DNA of 21,532 bases from a virus. Positions 3 to 19,402 of this stretch are shown here, one piece after another; positions within the stretch are counted from its first letter, which is position 1, and every line of letters begins with the position of its first letter. Made by a program: the position numbers and the translations under genes. The stretch covers positions 1 to 21,532 of IMG/VR virus record IMGVR_UViG_3300037504_000467; one strand, 5' to 3'. Below the pieces are notes generated by a model, which was not told where the DNA came from, did no database searches, and saw only the letters and a list, made by a program, of their open reading frames with translations.

Positions 3-2807
3 AATAATTCTGTACCCGCCCCATTTAATGATTCATCATTGTACTATATGATAAGATTGAATGATCGTGAATTTCAACTTTCTGCTTCTAGAGATGATGC
101 GGTTGCAGATAGACCTACACCTATAATTCCATCTAATACGGGAACAAAACAGTCGTTTGTTGGTAGAATCAAGAACACCTTTACCGCATTCTCAGCAAGA
201 GAAGTAAGAATTTATTGGAAGCAACATTTTCCTGATGAAAGAGTCGTGTTGACTTACCCAACACCTGTGACAATATCAGGTGTTCAAAACATGATTGATT
301 TTATCAACGGTTATTCTGCATATATGGAAAGTCTAGGATTTGACTTTACTGATGAAAGTGGATTTAATAGAGACCCGTCTACTGGACGAGTTTTCAATTG
401 GCAATATGAAACTGAAAAGTTAATAGAATTCTTGTATCAGACAAGAAACGCCCGTCAACAGTTGGTCGATAACTACCCATCTACACCAGACGCGGCAACA
501 AACTCTTTTGTAAGTGATAATGTTATTACATGGGTAACTGGTACAAGAGTTACACTTTCTACTGATGGTGGTATTTTACCAGCAGAGTTTGACAATCCAA
601 TACCTTCTGCAATACCATACTATATCATTCAATCTGCTACAAACGGTAGATTCCAATTAGCCGCTAGTCCGGCTGACGCCAAGGCGGGTAGAGCAATTCC
701 ATTCTCAGATAATGGAACCGGTAAAGTTATAGTGACTCTTTCAAAGAGCCAAGATCGAAGACCTCTTATCGTCTTAAATCCACAGCAACGACAAGTATTT
801 ATAGATCATAATACTGGAATTATTTCAAATGTGTTTGCTGGAGAAAACCTTGATATTGTAACCAATCAGAGAATTTATGATGTTGATGGTCAAACCTTGA
901 CGGTTGATGATTTGCAGGTCAGTAGAAGAGATGTAAGATCATCAATTGAACTTTCTATTCAGCGTCTGGAACAGAATGAAGCTAATTTTGCAAACGCTAG
1001 AGTGATGGCAGGATTGCATATTTTCTTTGATGGTTTTGAACATGTTCTTCAATTTAGAGACTACTCATCCGATGATACTTTGATTTATGATAGTTTCTTA
1101 GGTTTGAACACTCCTAGATTCTTACTTGAATTTGATAGACAAACAAACTTTACACTAAGACCCAACGTTGGGGGTGCTGTTGTATTTGAAAACTCCCAGA
1201 TTCAGAATATTGAATCTGCTATTGAAGAATTGAGAAATGCATACAGTACATACACTTCAAAAGAGGGTGATGTTACTACTGAAAGAGTTAGAGGAGCTTT
1301 GGGATACCGAGGCCCTGATGACTATGCTGATGATCTTGCAATCACTGATAAAACCCAGTTTGCTTTCTATAGAGGTTTGATACAACGTAAGGGTACAAAT
1401 TTTGCTGCGGAAGCATTTACAAATCAACTAGCGTTTGAGAATGTAGAAATCGATGAGTTCTGGGCTTATCGCCTAGGGTCATTTGGTGATTCAAAACAAA
1501 AAGTTTATCCAGAACTTCAACTGTTACCAGATGATCTTGAAAATAATGAACTAAGATTTGAATTTGTTCCATTGTCCGAAGAGCCATCTAACCCAACATT
1601 CTTACCAATTTCATTGACAAATGATAGCAGATGGTATGATGCGCCAGATCAAGTTGAAAAACTTGATCCAAGAGATAGGTTCTATATTAATCTAGCAGTA
1701 GGTCAAAGAATTGAAAATGCTCTACTATATCAGCAAAATGTTGTAGATGTTGATCCAACTCCTACTCCAACACCACCAGTGACTCCTACTCCAACTTCAA
1801 ATAACACGCCAACAGCAAGCGTATCACCAACTCCCACACCGGGCTCTTCACCTACACCAACACCTGCGCCTACACTTACACCTACACCAACTATTACACC
1901 TTCACCAAGTGAATTACCAGCACCAGAATTCGCAGGTGCTACTGAAATTGATGTGCGTGGTTCAAATGGTGATCCAGTAACTTTCAATGCTAGAGTTGGA
2001 TTTGAAATAAACAATAATGGTCAGGTAAGTGCATTTGTAAGTAATGCTTCACTTTCTACAACCGTTGTACCTAACAGATGGTGGCCAAACGCACCGCAAA
2101 CGAATATAGGCGATGAACATGAAATTGAAATTGTACTAAATTCTGGCACCTTGTTAACTACCTCTCCATTTACTGGCGCTACCGGTCCTAATAACTTTGT
2201 TCCATTATCTTTCAATAGAACAATAGCGGTAAATGCAAGCGGTGGTGGAGATACGGAAACCGCAGAAGGTTATATTAGAATCCGAAATATTTCTAATCCT
2301 TCAAAAATTGACAGTATTGATTTCTTCTTGAGTGTTGAAATTGATGATGGTGGTGGCGCTGGCGGCGGTGGTGGTGATGAGTGTTTCATTGCCGGTAGTA
2401 AAGTAATGATGGCAAATGGTCACCTAGTTAATATTGAAGATATCAAGATTGGTGATAAGGTATTCGGTAAAGACGGTGCCGAAAATACCGTTCTTGATGT
2501 TACTGAACATTCTACTACAGTAAGAGAATTGGTTTCTATAAATGGCTCTGATCCATACGTAACAACCTCACATCCATTCTTGACTACTGACGGTTGGAAA
2601 GCATTTGACGCTGAAAGAGCATCTGAACTTCATCCAGAACTAGAAATAAGTCAACTTGATGAAGGTGACAGACTGATTAAATACAATAACGAAACAGAAG
2701 AAATTACTTCTATGATTTTTGCAAAAACACTTACAAAAGTGTACAATCTAAACGTAGACGGTGATGATACTTTCGTTGTAAATGGATTTGTGGTTCACAA
2801 TAAGTAA
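3..2807 (+). CDS. Large tail/baseplate structural protein with C-terminal Hint domain (5' partial)
   Basis: The frame is open from the first bases of the window, so the true start lies upstream; the TTG at 39 is not needed as a start. About 580 visible residues form a virion-protein-like region that contains a repeated motif, YY-I-(8 residues)-FQL-AS, near residues 13-35 and 205-230. Such motifs are common in marine phage tail proteins. Then come a Thr/Pro tract (residues 585-639), a beta-rich domain (about 640-781), a Gly linker and a Hint domain starting at Cys794. The gene sits immediately upstream of two further Thr/Pro-containing tail-type genes and gp15. I infer a baseplate or tail-fibre role. 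The visible N-terminal part could be one section of a giant tail protein that is undivided in relatives. The structural class is fairly sure; the exact position in the virion is not. Confidence 0.7.
1755..1919 (+). repeat. Thr/Pro-rich low-complexity tract, first tail gene
   Basis: About 55 codons of alternating Thr, Pro, Ser and Val (PTPTP type), encoded by degenerate repeats of ACA/ACT and CCA/CCT. It separates the N-terminal structural region from the beta-rich domain. Similar tracts occur in the next two genes and nowhere else in the window. Such sequence normally acts as an extended linker. Confidence 0.9.
2382..2807 (+). other. C-terminal Hint / bacterial-intein-like self-processing domain
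   Basis: Roughly 140 residues with all the Hint landmarks. Block A starts CFIAGSKV and continues through [10 protein letters not shown]. Block B is [13 protein letters not shown], with its TxxH histidine. Block F/G is [17 protein letters not shown] followed by VVHN. It is preceded by a run of eleven residues that is almost all Gly. No homing endonuclease is present. The terminal His-Asn is followed by a single Lys and then the stop, so there is no Cys, Ser or Thr at +1 and essentially no C-extein. Canonical splicing is therefore not expected. Known bacterial intein-like (BIL) domains without a +1 nucleophile carry out autocleavage or transfer the N-terminal part to another nucleophile. Domain identity is confident; activity is inferred. 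Confidence 0.88.
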
Positions 2808-2812
2808 TCAAA

Positions 2813-5416
2813 ATGACTGATAAGATTATAACATTAAATAAACCAGCCGATGCAGCTTATATAATCTGGAGGAACTTTCCACCAGATAGTACCCCTCGTC
2901 AGCTTACTGAAGGTCAAGATTATGAATTCTTGAGTAATTATGTCATTCGATTCATCGGTCCTTTTCTTGAGGCTGGTGTTTTTGATTCTGAAGATAATAT
3001 CATTAATGTATCTACCTTGCAGTATAACTATGATGCTCAGAATCCGGCTGTATTGATTGATAGAAAGGACGGTATTGTTATTACAGAAGTTCCAATTTGG
3101 AACCCTGCAAGACAACAATATGACCCAAAAGCAATTTATGCAGTTGACTTTAGAAAACCTGCTGATCCTGCTAGGTATAATAACAAAATTCAAACAAATA
3201 CCGATCCAGATGTAAATTTTTGGGATAGTAGATTTGTAAACAAAGTGTGGTTTGATGTTAGTAAAGAGTATTATTTCCCTTATGATGATAAAAATCTAGA
3301 ACCAAACTTGGAAACTAGACTAAGAAATTGGGGTAAACTTGCTGAGTTTGGAGAGATAAATGTTTATCAATGGACTGAATCTAATGTGCCCCCTGCACAA
3401 TATGATGTTCTTGCGGAGGAAGAAGAAACAGATGATTCTATCCCTCTAGAGCAAAGAAAAACTGGTAGAAGTAGAAAAGTACTTTATCGAAACGATGGTA
3501 CATTTGATGATCCGATTTGGGTCATTGAAGAAGATCAGATTTTTGAAATAATTTCTGATTTGGTAACTAATATTTCTTATCCTGAAACTTTTTCAGACTT
3601 GGATAATAATCCAAGACCCGGCAGCGTTGAAGTTTATATAAACGGTGTTTTAAATGAAGATTATACATTCTTCGATCAAACAAGCTTTAAAGTATTTGTG
3701 GAAAGTGTAGGCTCAAAAAAAATAATTCATGTAATTAGAAGAGCTACAAATCCTACTCAAGAGCAACTGGAAAACAGAGAGTACAAATTTGATACACCAT
3801 ATTCAATTGTTGAAAAGATCAATTCTACTACAGGTAATCCAGAAAATTTTTACTATTTCTGGGTAGAAGACAAACTTACAAAGATAAAAATAAAAGGTGG
3901 GCCAACTAGCAGCATCACGTTTAGTGCTGTTAAAGATGCTTTGCAGAATATTTCAACTCCTTATTTGATTCCTCTAAATCCAATAGACTTAGCAGCCACT
4001 GGATTTGCTGATATTTTTATTACAAATAGTCCTAGAACTGAAGATAGTGAGTCATTTGAATTTCCTTTTGCAATGAATCAATTGGTTGTGAGAGGCTTGA
4101 ATGAAATAGTAAGTCCCGATGACAGATATGTATTAAGGTTTACAAGAGATTTTACTTTAAGAGATAAACTTAAGTCATATATTTTGCCAACACCTACACC
4201 AAGTGTTACACCTACTCTAACACCTACACCAAGTGTTACATCATCTATTACTCCAACACCAACTGTTGGAGTTACTACTACGCCAACAATTACACCAAGC
4301 AGAACCCCTACACAAACACCAACAACCACTGTTGGGTTTACTGGTACGGTTACGCCGACACCATCAGTTACCTCGACTCCTACACTTACACCAACACCAA
4401 CAGTCACAACATATTTAACACCGACAGTTACCCCAACAATGTCGGTTACACCATCACCTACATTTACGCCAACTCCAACTATTACGGCTTCTATTACACC
4501 AACACCTACTTCTACGCCTAGAATAGAAAGTGGTATTTCTGATCTTCAGAAGAAAAACGTTCATTGGGAATGGAAATTAATTCGTGAAAAACAATTTACA
4601 AAAATTGATAGAAATCTTTGGAATGAAATTATTGAAGCATTGGTTGGCTTTGAATATACAGGTGGGCCAATTGAAGGACCAGAAGTTTCTTTGACGCCTA
4701 CACCTACTGTTACACCAACACCATCTCCATCACCCGTTGGAGTCACAGTAACTCCTACAATTACACCATCACGCACACCAACTCTAACACCTCCTGCAAC
4801 AGCAACACCTACTGTTACACCGTCAAGAACAGGTACGCCAATTGCGCCAACACCATCAAGCACCGTTACACCAACAAGAACTCCAGCAGTTACACCAACA
4901 CCATCACCGGGTCCGGTGGGGGCACTAAGCAATCCGGGCACAATTTCCGAAACTTCTACAACACCATTTGGAAGTCTTGGGGGAACTGCTACCATATTAT
5001 TCCGTATTTTGAATAATGGTTTGATAATTGTGACAGAAACTTTTACTTTCTTTGGTCCAAATTCACCATCACCAATAACTACAGAATATAATTGGTGGCT
5101 ACCGACTGCCAATGTAACTGCTTTTCAACCCGGCACTCTGTATGATGTTGAAGTGAATATAGTTGGTAGTAGTGGCGATTCTACCCCACCATCTTCATGG
5201 TTGAGTGGAGCTTCAGCTCCACTTGGAACACGTTTAGATATAGATGGTAGTACTGCTCTTGTTTGGTCTCAATCTAGTTTCAGAAACAGAGGTACAGCAG
5301 GTGTATATACCACAAGAACTATTAATTTCCAAGTAATAATAAGAGAAAAATCTGATCCTAACAGTACGCAACGACTTACTTTCAACATGAATTTGGCAAC
5401 AGAAGTGCAGCCATGA
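2813..5416 (+). CDS. Tail/baseplate structural protein with two Thr/Pro tracts and C-terminal beta-rich domain
   Basis: 867 residues, starting 5 nt after the previous stop with no convincing ribosome-binding site, which suggests translational coupling. Residues 1-458 are aromatic- and Asn/Asp-rich virion-type sequence without a recognised catalytic motif. Residues 459-569 are a Thr/Pro tract. Residues 570-627 (around [11 protein letters not shown] and [12 protein letters not shown]) resume ordered sequence, and 628-702 are a second Thr/Pro tract. Residues 703-867 form a beta-rich domain related to the one in the preceding gene (shared WW motif, a YDVEV/HEIEI strand, and an I-R-x-(I/K)-S-(N/D)-P turn). 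There is no Hint domain. Probably part of the same tail organelle as both neighbours; the exact T4 counterpart is not identifiable by eye. Confidence 0.7.
4187..4519 (+). repeat. Thr/Pro-rich tract 1 of second tail gene
   Basis: About 111 codons of Thr-Pro-Thr-Pro, Ser-Val-Thr-Pro and similar units. This is the longest such tract in the window. It interrupts otherwise ordered sequence, with [10 protein letters not shown] before it and [16 protein letters not shown] after it, so it looks like an insertion into a domain boundary or loop rather than a natural end. Confidence 0.9.
4694..4918 (+). repeat. Thr/Pro-rich tract 2 of second tail gene
   Basis: About 75 codons of the same Thr/Pro/Ser/Val composition. 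It joins a short ordered segment to the C-terminal beta-rich domain and ends in a PSPGPVG turn. At the DNA level it shares many short identical words (ACACCAACACC, GTTACACC) with the other tracts. Confidence 0.9.
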
Positions 5417-5444
5417 CTTGCATTATAACCACCATGTAAGAACT

Positions 5445-5452
5445 AATAAATA
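5445..5452 (+). promoter_or_regulatory. NATAAATA late-promoter-like box, 5 nt before ATG
   Basis: AATAAATA matches the T4 late consensus TATAAATA at seven of eight positions and fits the relaxed NATAAATA reported for marine T4-like phages. It ends 5 nt before the start codon at 5458. In T4 the box lies at about -13 to -6, so transcription would start at or next to the A of ATG. It could be chance in AT-rich DNA. Confidence 0.35.
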
Positions 5453-5457
5453 TAAAC

Positions 5458-6084
5458 ATGACTGATAGAGATAAAAGACTTCCAAGCTTAGATAGAATTC
5501 TTTATGATGAAGCATTTGGAACAGACACCCGATTTGGTTTAGGACCAGATCAAATATTCGTTGATCCCGATTTAGCAAGATCAACTATTATTGCTATTCT
5601 TAATGACCCAAATAGGGAATTTGATGGTGTAGATATTGATAATTTTATCAATAATACTCTTAACTTCTCAACACCTGAAGATATTGTTAATACGATGAAT
5701 GCTATCTATGATACTTTTAGTCCAGAAGATGTTAACTTTATTTTTTTCCAAGTATTACAAGATGCATTTTCAACAAAACAAGAATTTGAAGAGTTTTTCA
5801 AAACTTCATGGGTTGCTCTAGAAATAAATCAGAATTTTCAAAATCCTGAACCTGTTACACCCAGAAATTTGAATCTACAACCCGGTGGAGCGTGTTTTAT
5901 AGAGGCGCCTACACCATCTCCAACTACGTCACCAACACCTACTCCTCAAGTTTCTGTAACACCTAGTTTAACAGTCACACCAAATGCAACGCTGACCCCA
6001 ACACCTACAGTTACACCAACTGTTACATCAACCCCTAATCTTACTCCAACAGTGACCCCAACAGGCTCAGGGCCGGGGGTCTAA
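5458..6084 (+). CDS. Small tail/baseplate-type protein ending in a Thr/Pro tract
   Basis: 208 residues. Residues 1-140 are an ordered, acidic, helix-rich region (starting RLPSLDRILYDEAFG, then repeated acidic-aromatic helices such as IDNFINN and EDVNFIFFQVLQDAF). Residues 151-208 are a Thr/Pro/Val tract that runs to the stop. A short GGACFIEA stretch precedes the tract and vaguely recalls the start of the Hint block A two genes upstream; this is probably coincidence. The gene has no clear Shine-Dalgarno sequence; only 41 nt separate it from the previous gene. From memory, the LPSLxRxLYDE type of segment lies inside very large tail proteins of marine T4-like phages, which would make this the split-off end of one. 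Function unknown beyond a probable structural role. Confidence 0.68.
   Translation: MTDRDKRLPSLDRILYDEAFGTDTRFGLGPDQIFVDPDLARSTIIAILNDPNREFDGVDIDNFINNTLNFSTPEDIVNTMNAIYDTFSPEDVNFIFFQVLQDAFSTKQEFEEFFKTSWVALEINQNFQNPEPVTPRNLNLQPGGACFIEAPTPSPTTSPTPTPQVSVTPSLTVTPNATLTPTPTVTPTVTSTPNLTPTVTPTGSGPGV
5908..6081 (+). repeat. Thr/Pro-rich C-terminal tail of third tail gene
   Basis: About 58 codons of Thr, Pro, Ser, Val and Asn, running to the stop codon with no domain after it. The other tracts lead into ordered sequence; this one ends the protein. Confidence 0.88.
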
Positions 6085-6086
6085 AG

Positions 6087-6094
6087 GATAAATA
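6087..6094 (+). promoter_or_regulatory. NATAAATA late-promoter-like box, 5 nt before gp15 ATG
   Basis: GATAAATA ends exactly 5 nt before the gp15 start codon, the same spacing as at 5445-5452. Initiation at the T4 late spacing would put the first transcribed base at the ATG. An AAAGGA Shine-Dalgarno element (6083-6088) overlaps the box and would serve read-through transcripts. Confidence 0.4.
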
Positions 6095-6099
6095 GTTAC

Positions 6100-6870
6100 A
6101 TGGCTAATACACCGAAAGATACATCATTAGAGAATTATTACTACGCAGAGCAGCTAAGACACCATATTGTTCAATTTATGGCGGTCTTCTCAGGTCTTAA
6201 AGTTTCTGTTGGTAAAAACGATTTCAATTCTCAAACTAATCTTATAGAAGTTCCTATTGTATATGGCAGTAGGGATAGAGTTGTATCGCATATCTTTTCT
6301 GATAATACACAAAATAAGATGCTAAGATTACCTATGATGAGCGCACAGCTAACTGGTATGGAAATTGCACTTGAGCGCCTGACTGGTCAAGGTCAAGAAA
6401 GAAAAGAAGTAAAGTTAAAAAGAGGGGGCATCATTCCTGATGATCTACAACAACTAACCACTCTTCAATCTATTCCATACCGTGCTCAAATGGAACTTTT
6501 TATCCACACTACCAATACTGATCATCAATTTCAGATGCTTGAGCAAATACTATTACTATTCGATCCATCTCTTCAGATTCAAGTATCTGATGCATATGGT
6601 AACAGACAAAGCATAGTCCAAGTATTTCTAGAAAACATAACACTAGATGAAAACTATCCGGCAGGAAATGACAATAGAATTATTTCTGCCACACTAAATT
6701 TCAGCTATGTTTTCTATCTTACCCCGCCATCTAATCTAAAAGATGAAATCATAAAAAGCATTAAAATTCGTCTTCAAGCCCTCAATCAATTAGACAGTGA
6801 TCCGGCTGCTCTAAATGACGGAAAAGTCGATCCTTTTATCATTTCTACCATCGGCGCTCCTAAACAGTAA
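6100..6870 (+). CDS. 15: Tail completion and sheath stabiliser protein gp15
   Basis: 256 residues, close to T4 gp15 (272). T4 gp15 forms the hexameric ring that caps the contracted or extended sheath and joins the tail to the head. The recognisable pattern is EVPIVYGSRDRV near the N-terminus (T4: VPITYASKEHF), then a central IPYRAQMELFIHTTNTDHQF followed by QMLEQILLLFDPSLQ (T4: MIYELSIFTRYEDDMFQIVEQILPYFQP). A C-terminal beta strand ends in FYLTPP (T4: WMYPP). The start is supported by AAAGGA 11 nt upstream. It is immediately followed by gp18, as expected for the T4 tail module, although gp16 and gp17 (terminase), which separate 15 and 18 in T4, are absent here. Confidence 0.88.
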   Translation: MANTPKDTSLENYYYAEQLRHHIVQFMAVFSGLKVSVGKNDFNSQTNLIEVPIVYGSRDRVVSHIFSDNTQNKMLRLPMMSAQLTGMEIALERLTGQGQERKEVKLKRGGIIPDDLQQLTTLQSIPYRAQMELFIHTTNTDHQFQMLEQILLLFDPSLQIQVSDAYGNRQSIVQVFLENITLDENYPAGNDNRIISATLNFSYVFYLTPPSNLKDEIIKSIKIRLQALNQLDSDPAALNDGKVDPFIISTIGAPKQ

Positions 6871-9115: not shown

Positions 9116-9892
9116 TTATTTCTTCAGAAGTGGTTTTATTTTCTGATCGTAGTAGCTTTCCAAACGAGAATCTAATCTCTTTTTGTTTTCAGGACTTAGA
9201 TTGTTTGCAAAACCAGTGTTTTTTCCGCTTGAATCTTTAGAGAGAATACCTCTTGCAATCTTCTTGAATTCATCCATGTTTTCACCAAAGCTTTCTTTTG
9301 CAAGTTGGCGGATAGCCATTTTAACAGTGGCTTTTTTGCCTTCATCGGAAGTTTCTTGTTGTTCTTTTCTAAGCATTTCAGTCATTTCTTTGAACTCTTT
9401 AATCTTTTCGTTCAAGTCACTAACCATTTCCTTATACTTGTTTTCAAAAGATTTGCTGGTATTGTCTTCTTTATCTTCTTCATATTTTGTCTTGATTTCA
9501 GAAGGATTTTCAGTATCAAAATAAGTTTTCAAATATTCTTGAATATTGGATTTTACACCTTGAGTAACTTCACGATTTTTTGCCAAGAAAGAATCAATTT
9601 CACTTCTGATAGGAAGTGGTTGTGTGGTATCAACTACCAAGCACATTTCGTTTGAATCTTTCTTTTTTCCTAGTCTGATAATGTCAGAATCAGAAGGTCT
9701 AATGACCATGCACAAATCAATATTGCTGTTCTTAATAAGTCTTCCAATATGAAATTCAATTCTATCATCATCGCAGTCAACATGACCGTTGTCGATTCTA
9801 TCAATTATTTTTTGAAAGATAACATCACTGTTAACAGAAGTATTAGAATCTCTAATGACTTTTTCAGATAAAAAAGTTCTAAAACTACCCAT
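9116..9892 (-). CDS. Putative capsid-internal protein with capsid-targeting-like N-terminus
   Basis: The only minus-strand gene. A start at the second ATG (9892, 258 residues) is preferred over the ATG at 9904: GGAGA lies 6 nt before the former, and a late-promoter-like box at 9923-9916 would leave almost no leader for the latter. The N-terminus MGSFRTFLSE-K resembles the T4 capsid-targeting peptide MKTYQEFIAE-A of internal proteins, which gp21 protease cuts after a Leu/Ile-x-Glu motif. The rest is soluble: a mixed N-terminal half with acidic and aliphatic stretches (around DDRIEFHIGRL and DLCMVIRPSD), then a long highly charged predicted coiled coil (about 140-190) and a Lys-rich end. No enzyme motif is recognised. 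I infer a late-expressed protein packed inside the head and ejected with the DNA. The gene is confident; the role is tentative. Confidence 0.72.
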   Translation of the reverse strand: MGSFRTFLSEKVIRDSNTSVNSDVIFQKIIDRIDNGHVDCDDDRIEFHIGRLIKNSNIDLCMVIRPSDSDIIRLGKKKDSNEMCLVVDTTQPLPIRSEIDSFLAKNREVTQGVKSNIQEYLKTYFDTENPSEIKTKYEEDKEDNTSKSFENKYKEMVSDLNEKIKEFKEMTEMLRKEQQETSDEGKKATVKMAIRQLAKESFGENMDEFKKIARGILSKDSSGKNTGFANNLSPENKKRLDSRLESYYDQKIKPLLKK

Positions 9893-9915
9893 GGTATTCT
9901 CCATTATTATACTTA

Positions 9916-15377: not shown

Positions 15378-15686
15378 ATGAGTACAGTAGAAGATTTCAC
15401 CCTCCCTTCCAATCCTGAGGATATCAAACGAATCAAAAACGCAATCATGGAAGCTTCTGCTCAGAAGCAAATGATTAAAGATCGTCAGGAAGCAATCAAA
15501 GATATCAAAAACGATCTTAAAGAAAGATATGACCTTCCCCCAAAGCTTTTTGGTCAACTTGTAAAAGCGCATCATGATCAGTGTTATGATGAAATGACCG
15601 TAGAGCACTCCAAGTTTGAGCTTACTTATGAAACTCTCATGGGCCTTGAATCCGTCTCTGATGATGAGGAAGACGAGGACGTTTAA
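15378..15686 (+). CDS. dsbA: DsbA-like double-strand DNA-binding protein (late transcription accessory)
   Basis: 102 residues (T4 DsbA has 89). T4 DsbA binds double-stranded DNA and stimulates late transcription. The family pattern is clear: an acidic N-terminus, then IKNAIMEASAQKQMI (T4: IKEASDHKLKI), EAIKDIKNDLKERYDLPPK (T4: ELIKDIRIRAKDELGVDGK), LFGQLVKAHHDQCYDE (T4: MFNRLLALYHKDNRDV), and an acidic tail (SVSDDEEDEDV). A strong AAGGAG site 7 nt before ATG can be masked by the upstream inverted repeat. The stop overlaps the polymerase start by 1 nt (TAATG), so translation is likely coupled to gp43. In T4, dsbA lies beside rnh and gene 33; here polymerase and clamp stand between dsbA and rnh. 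Confidence 0.83.
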   Translation: MSTVEDFTLPSNPEDIKRIKNAIMEASAQKQMIKDRQEAIKDIKNDLKERYDLPPKLFGQLVKAHHDQCYDEMTVEHSKFELTYETLMGLESVSDDEEDEDV

Positions 15687-18600
15687 TGACCTATATCTCC
15701 GCTTTACTTTCTGAAAACAGAAAATATGTAAAGGTATGGGAACGTAATGAAAATGGGGAGCGCGTATGCAAAAAGTACGATGCTCCCTTTTATTTTTACG
15801 TAGAAGATGAAGACGGTGAGTTTGAAGACCTTTACGATGGTAAGAAGCTATCTAGGCTGGATTATGATTCAGCCCGTGATTTCTTTGATGCCAGAAAAAA
15901 GTTTGAAGAAAAGAAACTCAAACTTTATGAGTCTGATATTCCACCCGAATACAAAATTTTAGCGGAACATTATTTTAATAGTAATATTGGAAAACTACAT
16001 GTTACCTTCTATGATATTGAAGTTGACTATGATAAGGATAAAGGCTTCTCAAGCCCTACAAATCCATATGCACCGATAAATTCTATTGCTTTGTATCATG
16101 AATACAGTGATAGAACAGTTGTTCTAGTTGTCCCGCCTAAAACAAGAAAAGGTTATACTCATGGCGATCTTCCTGATGATATCAAAGAAGGTGCTGAGGT
16201 TATTGTCTGTAAAGATGAAAAAGAATTGCTGAAAATCTTTTTTGAAGAGATTGAAGACACCGATATCATTAGCGGATGGAACAGCGACATGTTCGATAAT
16301 CCCTATGTCTATGAAAGAGCTAAACTGATCTTTGGTGAAAAATTTGCAAACAGAATTTGTTTTGATGAATCTAGAGAACCATACTATAGAGAAATTGAGA
16401 TTTATGGCAATATAAACAAAAAACTGTGTATCCATGGTAGGGTAAGTCTTGATTATATTGATGTATACAAGAAATTTGAAATGTCTGAAAAACCTAGTTA
16501 TGCGCTAGAAGCTGTTTCTGAAGATGAACTACCACATCTACCAAAACTATCTTATACTGGTTCACTGTATGACTTATACAGAAATGATTTTGAAGAGTTC
16601 ATTCGATACAACATTCGTGATACCTTGATTCTAAAGGGGTTGGAGCAAAAGAAGAGATATATCAAACTAGCTATACAAATGTCTCATTCTGCAACATCAA
16701 AAATTGAAGATGTTTTGGGAACTACAAAAGTTGCTGAAATGTCGGTTCTTAACTATTGTCACTACAATCTTGGAAAGATTATTCCTGATTATAAACCACC
16801 AGAAGGTTTGAGCGGTGACAAATATGAAGGTGCTATAGTTCTACCACCAAATGTAGGAATGCACGAATGGATTGCATCCCTTGATATAGCATCTCTATAT
16901 CCTTCTACAATGCGATCATTGAATATCAGCCCAGAAACCATTACAGGACAGTTCATAGAAGGGGCTGACGCATACAAAGAGATATTTGAGGAATCGGATA
17001 AGGATATTTCTTTTAAAGAAGAGAAGAGTGGTAAGTTCTATACTGCGCCTGCAAAGAAATGGAAAACTTTTCTGAAGAAAAATAACTGGACCGTAAGTGG
17101 GTGCGGGACCACTTTTCATCAAGATTACGATGGTGTCATTCCGTCTGTATTAACACAGTGGTTTACTGAAAGAAAAGAATACAAGAAAAAAATGTTTGAA
17201 GCTTCTCAACGTGGAGATAAAGAAGCTCAAGAATATTACGATAACATGCAGTATATCAAAAAGATTCAATTAAACTCCATGTATGGAGCTACCGGTAATA
17301 AGTATTTCAAATTCTATGATGTTAGACTGGCAAAATCTACCACATTGTCTGGTAGAGAGATTCTCATGCACATGGTTAAAAAGGTTGCAGAAAAACTTAA
17401 TGGAAATTACGAATGGCCATCTAAGTCAATTTATTACGGAGATTCTGTGGCCCACGATACCAAAATTTATATAGCTCCTAATCATGATGTAAAAATAAGT
17501 GAGCTGTTTACCTCAGTTGATGACAGTATTGGGGATCGTGAATACTGTTATCCAAAAAATGTAAATGTATTGACTTATAGCGAATCGAAAAATAAAACTG
17601 TTTTTCGTCCTATAAAATATGTAATGCGTCATAAATGTAATAAAAAAATGTATCGCGTGCATTTGAATAATTATCAGTATGTAGATGTAACCGAAGATCA
17701 CTCATTGATTGGATATAAAAACACCAAGCAACGTAAGAAAAATGAATCACATTTGGTTGAACTAAAACCAACAGAGTTTGGCAACTCAATCAACAGTCTT
17801 GTCTATTTACAAAACATTCCAAGGGAGTCTGATGATATAGAGTCACTTAATTACAGCAAAGAAGTGTATGAATTTTTGGGTTATGTGATTGGAGATGGAT
17901 ATTGTGGTCCAATTGCTGAAAACGGTCAGCACGCGGGTGTTGGGCTATCCATAGGCACTCAAGATATTAATGAGGTTGAAACTAAGTTACTTAGTCCTCT
18001 TAAAAACCAAGGATTGGTTACGTCTTGGCATGTTAAACCGAATGGGCACGATGTTCGGATATGCGGAACTGCTATTGCGAGACTAGTAAGACAATCTGTA
18101 TATGCTGAGGGGGGTAAAAAATCTATCCCGAGCTGGATGCATAAAGAGAGCAGAGAGAACATTTGTTCATTTTTAAGAGGTTATTTTTCAGCAGATGGGA
18201 CGTTGACTAAGGGAATGCCAGTGCTGTGCAGTACTAATTCTGAATATTTAGAAGAGGTTCAAAAATTACTTTTTCTGTGTGGTATTTCTTCTACGATATG
18301 TCAGGAAAACCGTGTTAATTCATACAACGGGGTCAGCAGTGGAACCTATACAAAACGTTTAGCAGTAAAACAGCGAGATATCTTTGCCGAAAGAATTGGT
18401 TTCATTCTTGATCGTAAGCAAAATAAAATAAACACTAAAACGGGTAGATATTTTAGCTATCAATCAAAGTTTGATTTTGCGATTCAACAAATACAAAAAG
18501 TAGAAGAAATTGAGTATAGTGATTATGTCTATGATATTGAGGTAGAAGACACACACACGTTCTTTGCTAATAACGTGTTAGTTCATAATACAGACAGTGT

Positions 18601-19402
18601 GTATTTTTACACAAGGGCCAATAGCAAAGAAAAGTCCCGATTGATCGCAAATAAGCTATGTGATATAGTAAATAAATCTTACCCCGGATTTATGAGAGAC
18701 GCTTTTAACTGTGATGATAATCATGATAAACTAATCAAAGCAGAGCAAGAAATTGTTTCTGACCGAGGCATTTTTATAAAAAAGAAATACTACATTCTTC
18801 ATTTGGTCAGTAAAGACGGTAAAGATGTTGACGAAATGAAGAACATGGGAGTGCCTATTAAAAAGACTACACTTCCCAAGGAAATAAAAATTGAACTAGA
18901 AAGCTACATAGAAAGGTTGTTAAAAGGTGAATCTTGGGATATAATAGGACCGGAGATTGTCGCTTATAAAGACAAGATAAAGAATCTTGACAATCCTCTG
19001 GTATTGGGTTTGCCTACGGGCGTCAAAAAAGTAGAGCATTATACAGAATTATTTAATAGTAACGACCCTAATCTTAAATCATTACCGGGACACGTAGCTG
19101 CATCTATACTTTGGAATAAGTCTCTAAATGTTTATGGTGACAAGGAAAGTCCAAAGATTATTTCTGGTAGCAAGATAAAGGTATTCTATTTGAAGAATAA
19201 GATTGACAGGTTCAAAAGTATAGCCGTTCCTAAAGAACTCTCCGAACCACCAGAATGGTTCCTTAAACACTTTGAACCTATTATAGATAAAGACGCCCAA
19301 ATCACGAGGCTAGTAGACAATCCTATGAAGATCATGATATCGGCAGCAGGATTAAAAGTTCCAACGAAGAAAAAGATATTATTTGAAAAGGTATTCGAAT
19401 GA
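15686..19402 (+). CDS. 43: Replicative DNA polymerase gp43 (family B) containing an intein
   Basis: 1238 residues as translated, 856 after removal of the 382-residue intein (T4 gp43 has 898). Replicates phage DNA with 3'-5' proofreading. Exo I is FYDIEVD (Asp110, Glu112; T4 D112/E114); Exo II is IISGWNSDMFDNPYV; Exo III is YNIRDTLIL. Polymerase motif A is SLDIASLYPS (Asp400), motif B is around KKIQLNSMYGATGNKYF, and motif C is YGD-TDSVY, split by the intein between Asp586 and Thr969. All catalytic residues are kept. The C-terminus ends in KKKILFEKVFE, a plausible clamp-binding tail as in T4 gp43. ATGA overlaps the gp45 start. Activity should depend on intein splicing, since both motif C aspartates flank the insertion. 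Confidence 0.96.
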   Translation: MTYISALLSENRKYVKVWERNENGERVCKKYDAPFYFYVEDEDGEFEDLYDGKKLSRLDYDSARDFFDARKKFEEKKLKLYESDIPPEYKILAEHYFNSNIGKLHVTFYDIEVDYDKDKGFSSPTNPYAPINSIALYHEYSDRTVVLVVPPKTRKGYTHGDLPDDIKEGAEVIVCKDEKELLKIFFEEIEDTDIISGWNSDMFDNPYVYERAKLIFGEKFANRICFDESREPYYREIEIYGNINKKLCIHGRVSLDYIDVYKKFEMSEKPSYALEAVSEDELPHLPKLSYTGSLYDLYRNDFEEFIRYNIRDTLILKGLEQKKRYIKLAIQMSHSATSKIEDVLGTTKVAEMSVLNYCHYNLGKIIPDYKPPEGLSGDKYEGAIVLPPNVGMHEWIASLDIASLYPSTMRSLNISPETITGQFIEGADAYKEIFEESDKDISFKEEKSGKFYTAPAKKWKTFLKKNNWTVSGCGTTFHQDYDGVIPSVLTQWFTERKEYKKKMFEASQRGDKEAQEYYDNMQYIKKIQLNSMYGATGNKYFKFYDVRLAKSTTLSGREILMHMVKKVAEKLNGNYEWPSKSIYYGDSVAHDTKIYIAPNHDVKISELFTSVDDSIGDREYCYPKNVNVLTYSESKNKTVFRPIKYVMRHKCNKKMYRVHLNNYQYVDVTEDHSLIGYKNTKQRKKNESHLVELKPTEFGNSINSLVYLQNIPRESDDIESLNYSKEVYEFLGYVIGDGYCGPIAENGQHAGVGLSIGTQDINEVETKLLSPLKNQGLVTSWHVKPNGHDVRICGTAIARLVRQSVYAEGGKKSIPSWMHKESRENICSFLRGYFSADGTLTKGMPVLCSTNSEYLEEVQKLLFLCGISSTICQENRVNSYNGVSSGTYTKRLAVKQRDIFAERIGFILDRKQNKINTKTGRYFSYQSKFDFAIQQIQKVEEIEYSDYVYDIEVEDTHTFFANNVLVHNTDSVYFYTRANSKEKSRLIANKLCDIVNKSYPGFMRDAFNCDDNHDKLIKAEQEIVSDRGIFIKKKYYILHLVSKDGKDVDEMKNMGVPIKKTTLPKEIKIELESYIERLLKGESWDIIGPEIVAYKDKIKNLDNPLVLGLPTGVKKVEHYTELFNSNDPNLKSLPGHVAASILWNKSLNVYGDKESPKIISGSKIKVFYLKNKIDRFKSIAVPKELSEPPEWFLKHFEPIIDKDAQITRLVDNPMKIMISAAGLKVPTKKKILFEKVFE
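17444..18589 (+). mobile_element. Intein with LAGLIDADG homing endonuclease at the polymerase YGD/TDS site
   Basis: 382 residues, Ser587 to Asn968 of the gp43 reading frame. Block A is SVAHDTKIYI; block B is VTEDHSLIGY with the TxxH histidine; the endonuclease motifs are LGYVIGDG (731-738, Asp737) and LRGYFSADG (830-838, Asp837), both with their catalytic acid; block F is VYDIEVEDTHTFFANN and block G is VLVHN followed by Thr969 as the C-extein nucleophile. All splicing residues (Ser1, block B His, penultimate His, terminal Asn, +1 Thr) are present, so both splicing and homing look intact. This is the known pol-c insertion site of family B polymerases. Ten of 17 Arg codons are CGN, whereas the polymerase exteins use mainly AGA/AGG, which suggests horizontal arrival. 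Confidence 0.95.

Follow-up and report, generated by a model that had tools for sequence, protein, structure and literature searches.

The window, the whole 21,532-nucleotide stretch analysed here (IMG/VR record IMGVR_UViG_3300037504_000467), opens inside a long plus-strand reading frame, ORF1, which is followed by ORF2 and ORF3 (Table 1). The three frames are successive segments of a single giant structural protein belonging to XacN1-like jumbo phages. It measures 3313 aa in XacN1, in which its gene lies behind those for the baseplate wedge, and 3138 aa in RAS14. ORF1 matched phrog_10938 (virion structural protein, E 3e-18) and was 40% identical to XacN1 ORF325; in a sister IMG/VR contig (L003) it reaches 2409 aa or more, and the window covers its last 934 residues only. 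The initial annotation had spoken of a tail protein, which is right in substance: the product is a giant structural protein of the baseplate region. Further along, a lone minus-strand ORF (9116-9904) lies between the tail sheath and tail tube genes; its only match was a weak, terminase-small-subunit-like one.

Table 1. Coordinates of the ORF1-ORF3 region in the window, and host proteins of related terminal Hint domains in other IMG/VR loci
Feature	Position or locus	Strand	Basis or remark
ORF1, C-terminal 934 aa of giant baseplate-region structural protein	3-2807	+	open at 5' end of window
Conserved part of giant protein	3-1748	+	homologues in XacN1, RAS14 and jumbo-phage relatives from IMG/VR
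Pro/Thr-rich linker	1749-1913	+	inserted at a site where relatives run on
Beta-rich terminal domain of ORF1 (predicted)	1914-2345	+	fold prediction without confidence
Gly-rich linker (12 residues)	2346-2381	+	part of ORF1
BIL-type Hint domain, Cys794 to Lys934 (141 residues)	2382-2804	+	profiles, predicted fold, conservation
Cys794, predicted acyl-shift nucleophile	2382-2384	+	Cys in 23/23 terminal relatives
Block B, T854-T-S-H857	2562-2573	+	His in 23/23 terminal relatives
H932-N933-K934-stop	2796-2807	+	HNK-stop in 17/17 terminal clusters; His-Asn 2796-2801, Lys 2802-2804, TAA 2805-2807
ORF2, continuation of giant protein	2813-5416	+	5 nt past ORF1 stop, different frame; homology to relatives
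ORF3, last conserved piece plus Pro/Thr tail	5458-6084	+	residues 2945-3085 of XacN1 ORF325
Host: lambda gpI-type tail tip assembly protein, directly upstream of gpJ-like gene	L013-L017, L077		phrog_32
Host: Phage-tail_3/gpJ-type protein	L083
Host: DUF4815 protein	L075
Host: beta-repeat protein	L012
Host: several tail fibre proteins			fifth host type beside the giant baseplate protein of the window

The ORF1-ORF2 junction was unbroken in 9/9 relatives examined (XacN1, RAS14 and seven from IMG/VR, the near-identical L057-L059 being three of these seven). The window phage has a cassette there, consisting of the Pro/Thr linker, the beta-rich domain, the Gly linker, the Hint domain, a stop and a start. 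ORF1 is conserved as far as the beginning of the Pro/Thr linker, and ORF2 sets in where the next domain of the relatives does, indicating that hardly any ancestral sequence, if any, disappeared. No Hint domain of this family was found in the record of a 315-kb relative; the lineage can therefore probably do without the module. ORF2 has Pro/Thr linkers and a terminal domain of its own, and neither it nor ORF3 carries a Hint domain. Long Pro/Thr-rich stretches occur within or at the ends of all three pieces (approximately 1749-1913, 4166-4540, 4650-4970 and 5887-6081), and those of ORF2 and ORF3 are also present in some relatives. The terminal domains of ORF1 and ORF2 aligned at 26% identity, with 39 of 2000 shuffles scoring as well, a result that is no more than suggestive of homology; a two-sequence model of the domain was useless (pLDDT 43), and searches with the ORF1 copy returned no match except sister contig L003.

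The initial annotation had proposed that ORF1 ends in a complete Hint domain with one residue after the terminal Asn. Every element was located: the Gly linker, Cys794, blocks A and B, the terminal His-Asn, Lys and the stop. Two Pfam profiles scored above their cut-offs (Hom_end_hint, 44.5 bits against 32.1; Vint, 27.3 against 27), as did the NCBIfam profile of the intein C-terminal region (intein_Cterm, 20.2 against 15.6). An AlphaFold2 model built from a 23-sequence alignment had the Hint fold at a mean pLDDT of 91.6. Its nearest solved structure was Tetrahymena BIL2 (6y75, Z 19.8), followed by the gp41-1 intein (Z 17.4) and the C. thermocellum bacterial intein-like (BIL) domain 2lwy (Z 16.9); 81 chains among those compared reached Z >= 8, and the top-ranking ones were all Hint domains. 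As modelled, the C-terminal domain of ORF1 belongs to the Hint superfamily. Within it, the sequence marks of A-type BIL domains were all present (Cys1, T-x-x-H, C-terminal His-Asn and a +1 residue other than Cys/Ser/Thr). The best single-sequence PDB match was the BIL domain 2lwy (4e-6), but a profile search ranked DnaB inteins first. The window also encodes a family B DNA polymerase (15686-19402) with a LAGLIDADG intein at YGD/TDS that ends VHN-Thr, and thus holds both an ordinary intein and a terminal Hint domain.

Relatives of the ORF1 Hint domain were collected from IMG/VR with two scan patterns, one ending at HN and the other within block B, so that the block-B motif FLTTDGW was selected for. 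After removal of near-duplicates, 17 clusters were terminal, and all of them stop exactly at HNK; a Cys/Ser/Thr nucleophile at +1 was present in 0/17, and Lys in 17/17. Neither pattern includes the Lys, and its invariance is therefore not an effect of the search patterns. Since both AAG and AAA encode it and all of TAA, TAG and TGA follow it, the Lys is conserved at the protein level. The residue after His-Asn, whose conservation the initial annotation had left to homologues, is thus always Lys followed by a stop. Among 23 aligned terminal copies (pairwise identity 29-95%, median 41%), only 17 positions were invariant, including Cys1, the block-B His, His-Asn and Lys. An assembly or sequencing error as the origin of the stop in ORF1 is unlikely, as all relatives end at the same residue and L003 agrees with the gene end (8377/8378 bases identical across the shared part). 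L003 and the window phage may be one virus population, so this agreement argues against misassembly but does not represent independent evolution.

Hint copies at internal positions had Lys, Cys, Arg, Ser or Ala at +1, Lys being the commonest (9/21); a survey of PT-HINT domains in 148 genomes of one phylum yielded no useful background for this position. At least four Hint domains stand in series within one protein in L025 and L091 (IMGVR_UViG_3300032223_002055), with two junctions formed by a single Lys (VHNK-CFIAG), and L024 and L026 each have two in tandem. The Hint domains of L112, L024 and L026 directly precede the same DPIAQ(T/S)F-type domain, with HN-Cys in one phage and HN-Lys in the others; by sequence, the domain has apparently switched in nature between a form that splices and one that cleaves.

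The terminal Hint family caps at least six unrelated types of host protein (Table 1). 'Fibre' is used here as a working name, taken from sequence character and gene setting, for proteins that match no named family. In the Hint-bearing fibres the Hint Cys lies 0-2 residues past the end of the fibre domain, and 11 Hint-less paralogues stop 2-7 residues past the same domain. The Hint domain is therefore an add-on at a natural C-terminus. In L018 two neighbouring fibre-type genes (3398-4495 and 4904-6305) both have HNK-stop ends.

This range of hosts bears on two explanations suggested by the ORF1-ORF2 break. The domain might be a decayed cis-splicing intein whose C-extein was lost through the stop and a frameshift, as it lies exactly where a chain that is whole in the relatives is interrupted. 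However, it is not placed as an intein would be, since it comes together with an extra domain and a Pro/Thr linker. The HNK-stop form is also found again on unrelated hosts and is under purifying selection (see below). We rejected a former cis-splicing intein between ORF1 and ORF2 on these grounds, and consider the decay scenario highly improbable. Alternatively, the ORF1 thioester could be ligated in trans to the ORF2 N-terminus and so make the giant protein whole again: the two pieces are adjacent in one chain in the nine relatives, and ORF2 starts Met-Thr, so that Met removal would expose a Thr. Against this, ORF2 starts at a domain boundary, where non-covalent association would suffice, and most other hosts of terminal Hint domains are not known as split proteins. 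Moreover, the genes that follow other terminal-Hint genes have T, K, S, A, R, N or P as second residue, with no conserved nucleophile. Ligation to the product of the next gene was rejected as a general mechanism because of this unconserved N-terminal residue, and for ORF1 itself we give it very little credence.

The dN/dS ratio of the Hint domain was mostly 0.07-0.35 and usually below that of the host-protein portion of its gene (sequence pairs separated by very few changes carry no information here); judged by these ratios, the domain is under purifying selection. The block-F Asp was found in 0 of 34 rows with Lys/Arg at +1 and in 5/9 copies with Cys/Ser at +1, counts that ignore relatedness; a few labels in this tally were re-read by eye, and internal copies marked 'Y' read VYN. 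The pattern fits a loss of splicing with cleavage retained. Domain position 129, often the block-F His in inteins, is Asp, Asn or Ser in this family, and the C-terminal chemistry may consequently be slow. The departure of block F from that of inteins could also be expected if the domain stayed in the virion as a cap, whether structural or inactive. A mere cap would have no need of a catalytic set, whereas Cys1, the block-B His, His-Asn and Lys stay fixed in an alignment that varies at most of its columns, and dN/dS is low; retention as a cap is accordingly improbable.

We place just on the probable side of even the proposal that the domain is an active, non-splicing Hint of BIL type that occupies the C-terminus only for a time and then cuts itself off, so that a trimmed tail protein remains. 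Self-trimming is the best-supported explanation because the Hint domain sits on a natural C-terminus, is under purifying selection and lacks a +1 Cys/Ser/Thr. After folding, the block-B Thr and His would promote an N-to-S acyl shift at Glu793-Cys794, and the resulting thioester would be hydrolysed or taken by a nearby amine. With neither a +1 Cys/Ser/Thr nor a block-F Asp, it could not be passed on as in splicing, and cyclisation of Asn933 could free Lys934 only. The Hint domain would then depart and the tail protein end at the Gly-rich linker, resembling the natural end of the Hint-less paralogues. BIL domains without a +1 nucleophile give mainly cleavage products (PMC7664689). The analysis establishes what the domain is, its predicted fold, how it is conserved and placed, and that it is under selection; we infer that cleavage occurs, in this order of steps and with hydrolysis as the main outcome. 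The strict conservation of the terminal Asn and Lys is unneeded for simple N-terminal trimming. Hedgehog Hint domains, for their part, work without a terminal Asn.

The invariant Lys, being hard to explain by simple trimming, is the main reason for keeping conjugation in play. Here an amine would attack the Cys794 thioester to give an amide- or isopeptide-linked tail protein, the Hint domain acting as a built-in ATP-free ligase; the amine could come from a Lys side chain on an adjacent tail subunit, from the host surface or from the +1 Lys itself. The closest structure, Tetrahymena BIL2, is reported to attach the ubiquitin-like domain ahead of it to the side chains of Lys through isopeptide bonds (PMC8616854), but a similar fold does not prove the same reaction. 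Lys at +1 is invariant in terminal copies and the commonest residue in internal ones, as if it had an active-site role, though a structural role could also explain it. Several copies have flexible Gly/Ser-rich linkers ahead of the Cys, but neither the residue at -1 nor the linkers are conserved among copies. We regard conjugation as possible though unlikely, and the fuller proposal, that the phage terminal Hint with its invariant Lys is an ATP-free virion ligase bonding tail proteins covalently to the amine of a lysine, be it its own +1 Lys or one on a neighbouring tail subunit or a host surface group, as somewhat more doubtful still. The reading offered by the initial annotation therefore stands in its Hint/BIL identity, upheld by profile, fold and active-site conservation, and in trimming as the favoured outcome; the covalent attachment that it also raised takes its case from the nearest structural relative, and nothing was found that specifically favours acceptors of the lipid or small-molecule kind.

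HNK-type terminal Hint domains were not found with three queries against 50,697 cultured phage records. A looser search of cultured phages (E up to 1) gave, among the 30 of 104 records listed, weak matches only, mainly enzyme inteins. The closest candidate in culture is a 317-aa protein of Providencia phage PSTNGR1, encoded next to a tail fibre gene (L140, 5554-6507); it has a C-terminal Hint-like domain in which the Cys is present and the terminal His-Asn absent. Phage inteins are known chiefly as selfish elements that reside in enzymes of replication, nucleotide metabolism and packaging. In the literature searched, lying largely outside subscription journals, only inteins in enzymes were found when Hint domains on tail proteins were sought, and no published description was found of a recurrent, selected, strictly terminal Hint with an invariant Lys on tail proteins. 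Uncultured phage proteins already bear the label 'Hint domain' in databases, and the superfamily whose chemistry is involved is an established one. What emerges is that Hint domains have repeatedly been adopted as the C-terminal part of tail proteins, contractile and lambda-type, and kept under selection. The recurrence of the lysine-ended form on unrelated tail proteins suggests that these proteins trim their own ends or attach them chemically. Cleavage would be a new maturation step for tails, and transfer would be a natural protein ligation chemistry on the virion and a possible tool; the one-residue invariant Lys tail is a specific and easily tested clue.

Among known systems, the A-type BIL domains described by Amitai, Dassa and Pietrokovski (C. 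thermocellum, 2lwy) share with the ORF1 domain the Hint fold, Cys1, the block-B His, the terminal His-Asn and the lack of Cys/Ser/Thr at +1, and block F has Asn, not Asp, in both. The described A-type domains, however, are flanked on either side by further sequence of the variable bacterial proteins that contain them, whereas the ORF1 domain forms the end of a phage tail protein, closing with HN and Lys. Tetrahymena thermophila BIL2 (BUBL1 locus; 6y75/6tmm) aligned over 138 residues at 25% identity; it lies between ubiquitin-like domains, is Zn-dependent and is a reported conjugator, and the likeness is one of fold only. Class 1 inteins, such as that of the window's DNA polymerase, have the fold, Cys/Ser1 and blocks A, B and G in common, but splice by means of a +1 Cys/Ser/Thr and a C-extein, in place of which ORF1 has Lys and a stop. 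The Hedgehog Hog Hint (1at0, Z 15.2) is also C-terminal, with the upstream protein as thioester donor; a sterol-recognition region lies behind it, whereas a single residue follows the ORF1 domain, which retains an invariant terminal HN. PT-HINT domains of polymorphic toxins are related in sequence (26.2 bits, below the Pfam cut-off of 27.7), but ORF1 has no downstream toxin domain to release. Finally, phage tail spikes carry removable C-terminal chaperone domains, which are analogous as self-removing C-terminal modules but unrelated to Hint domains in fold and chemistry.
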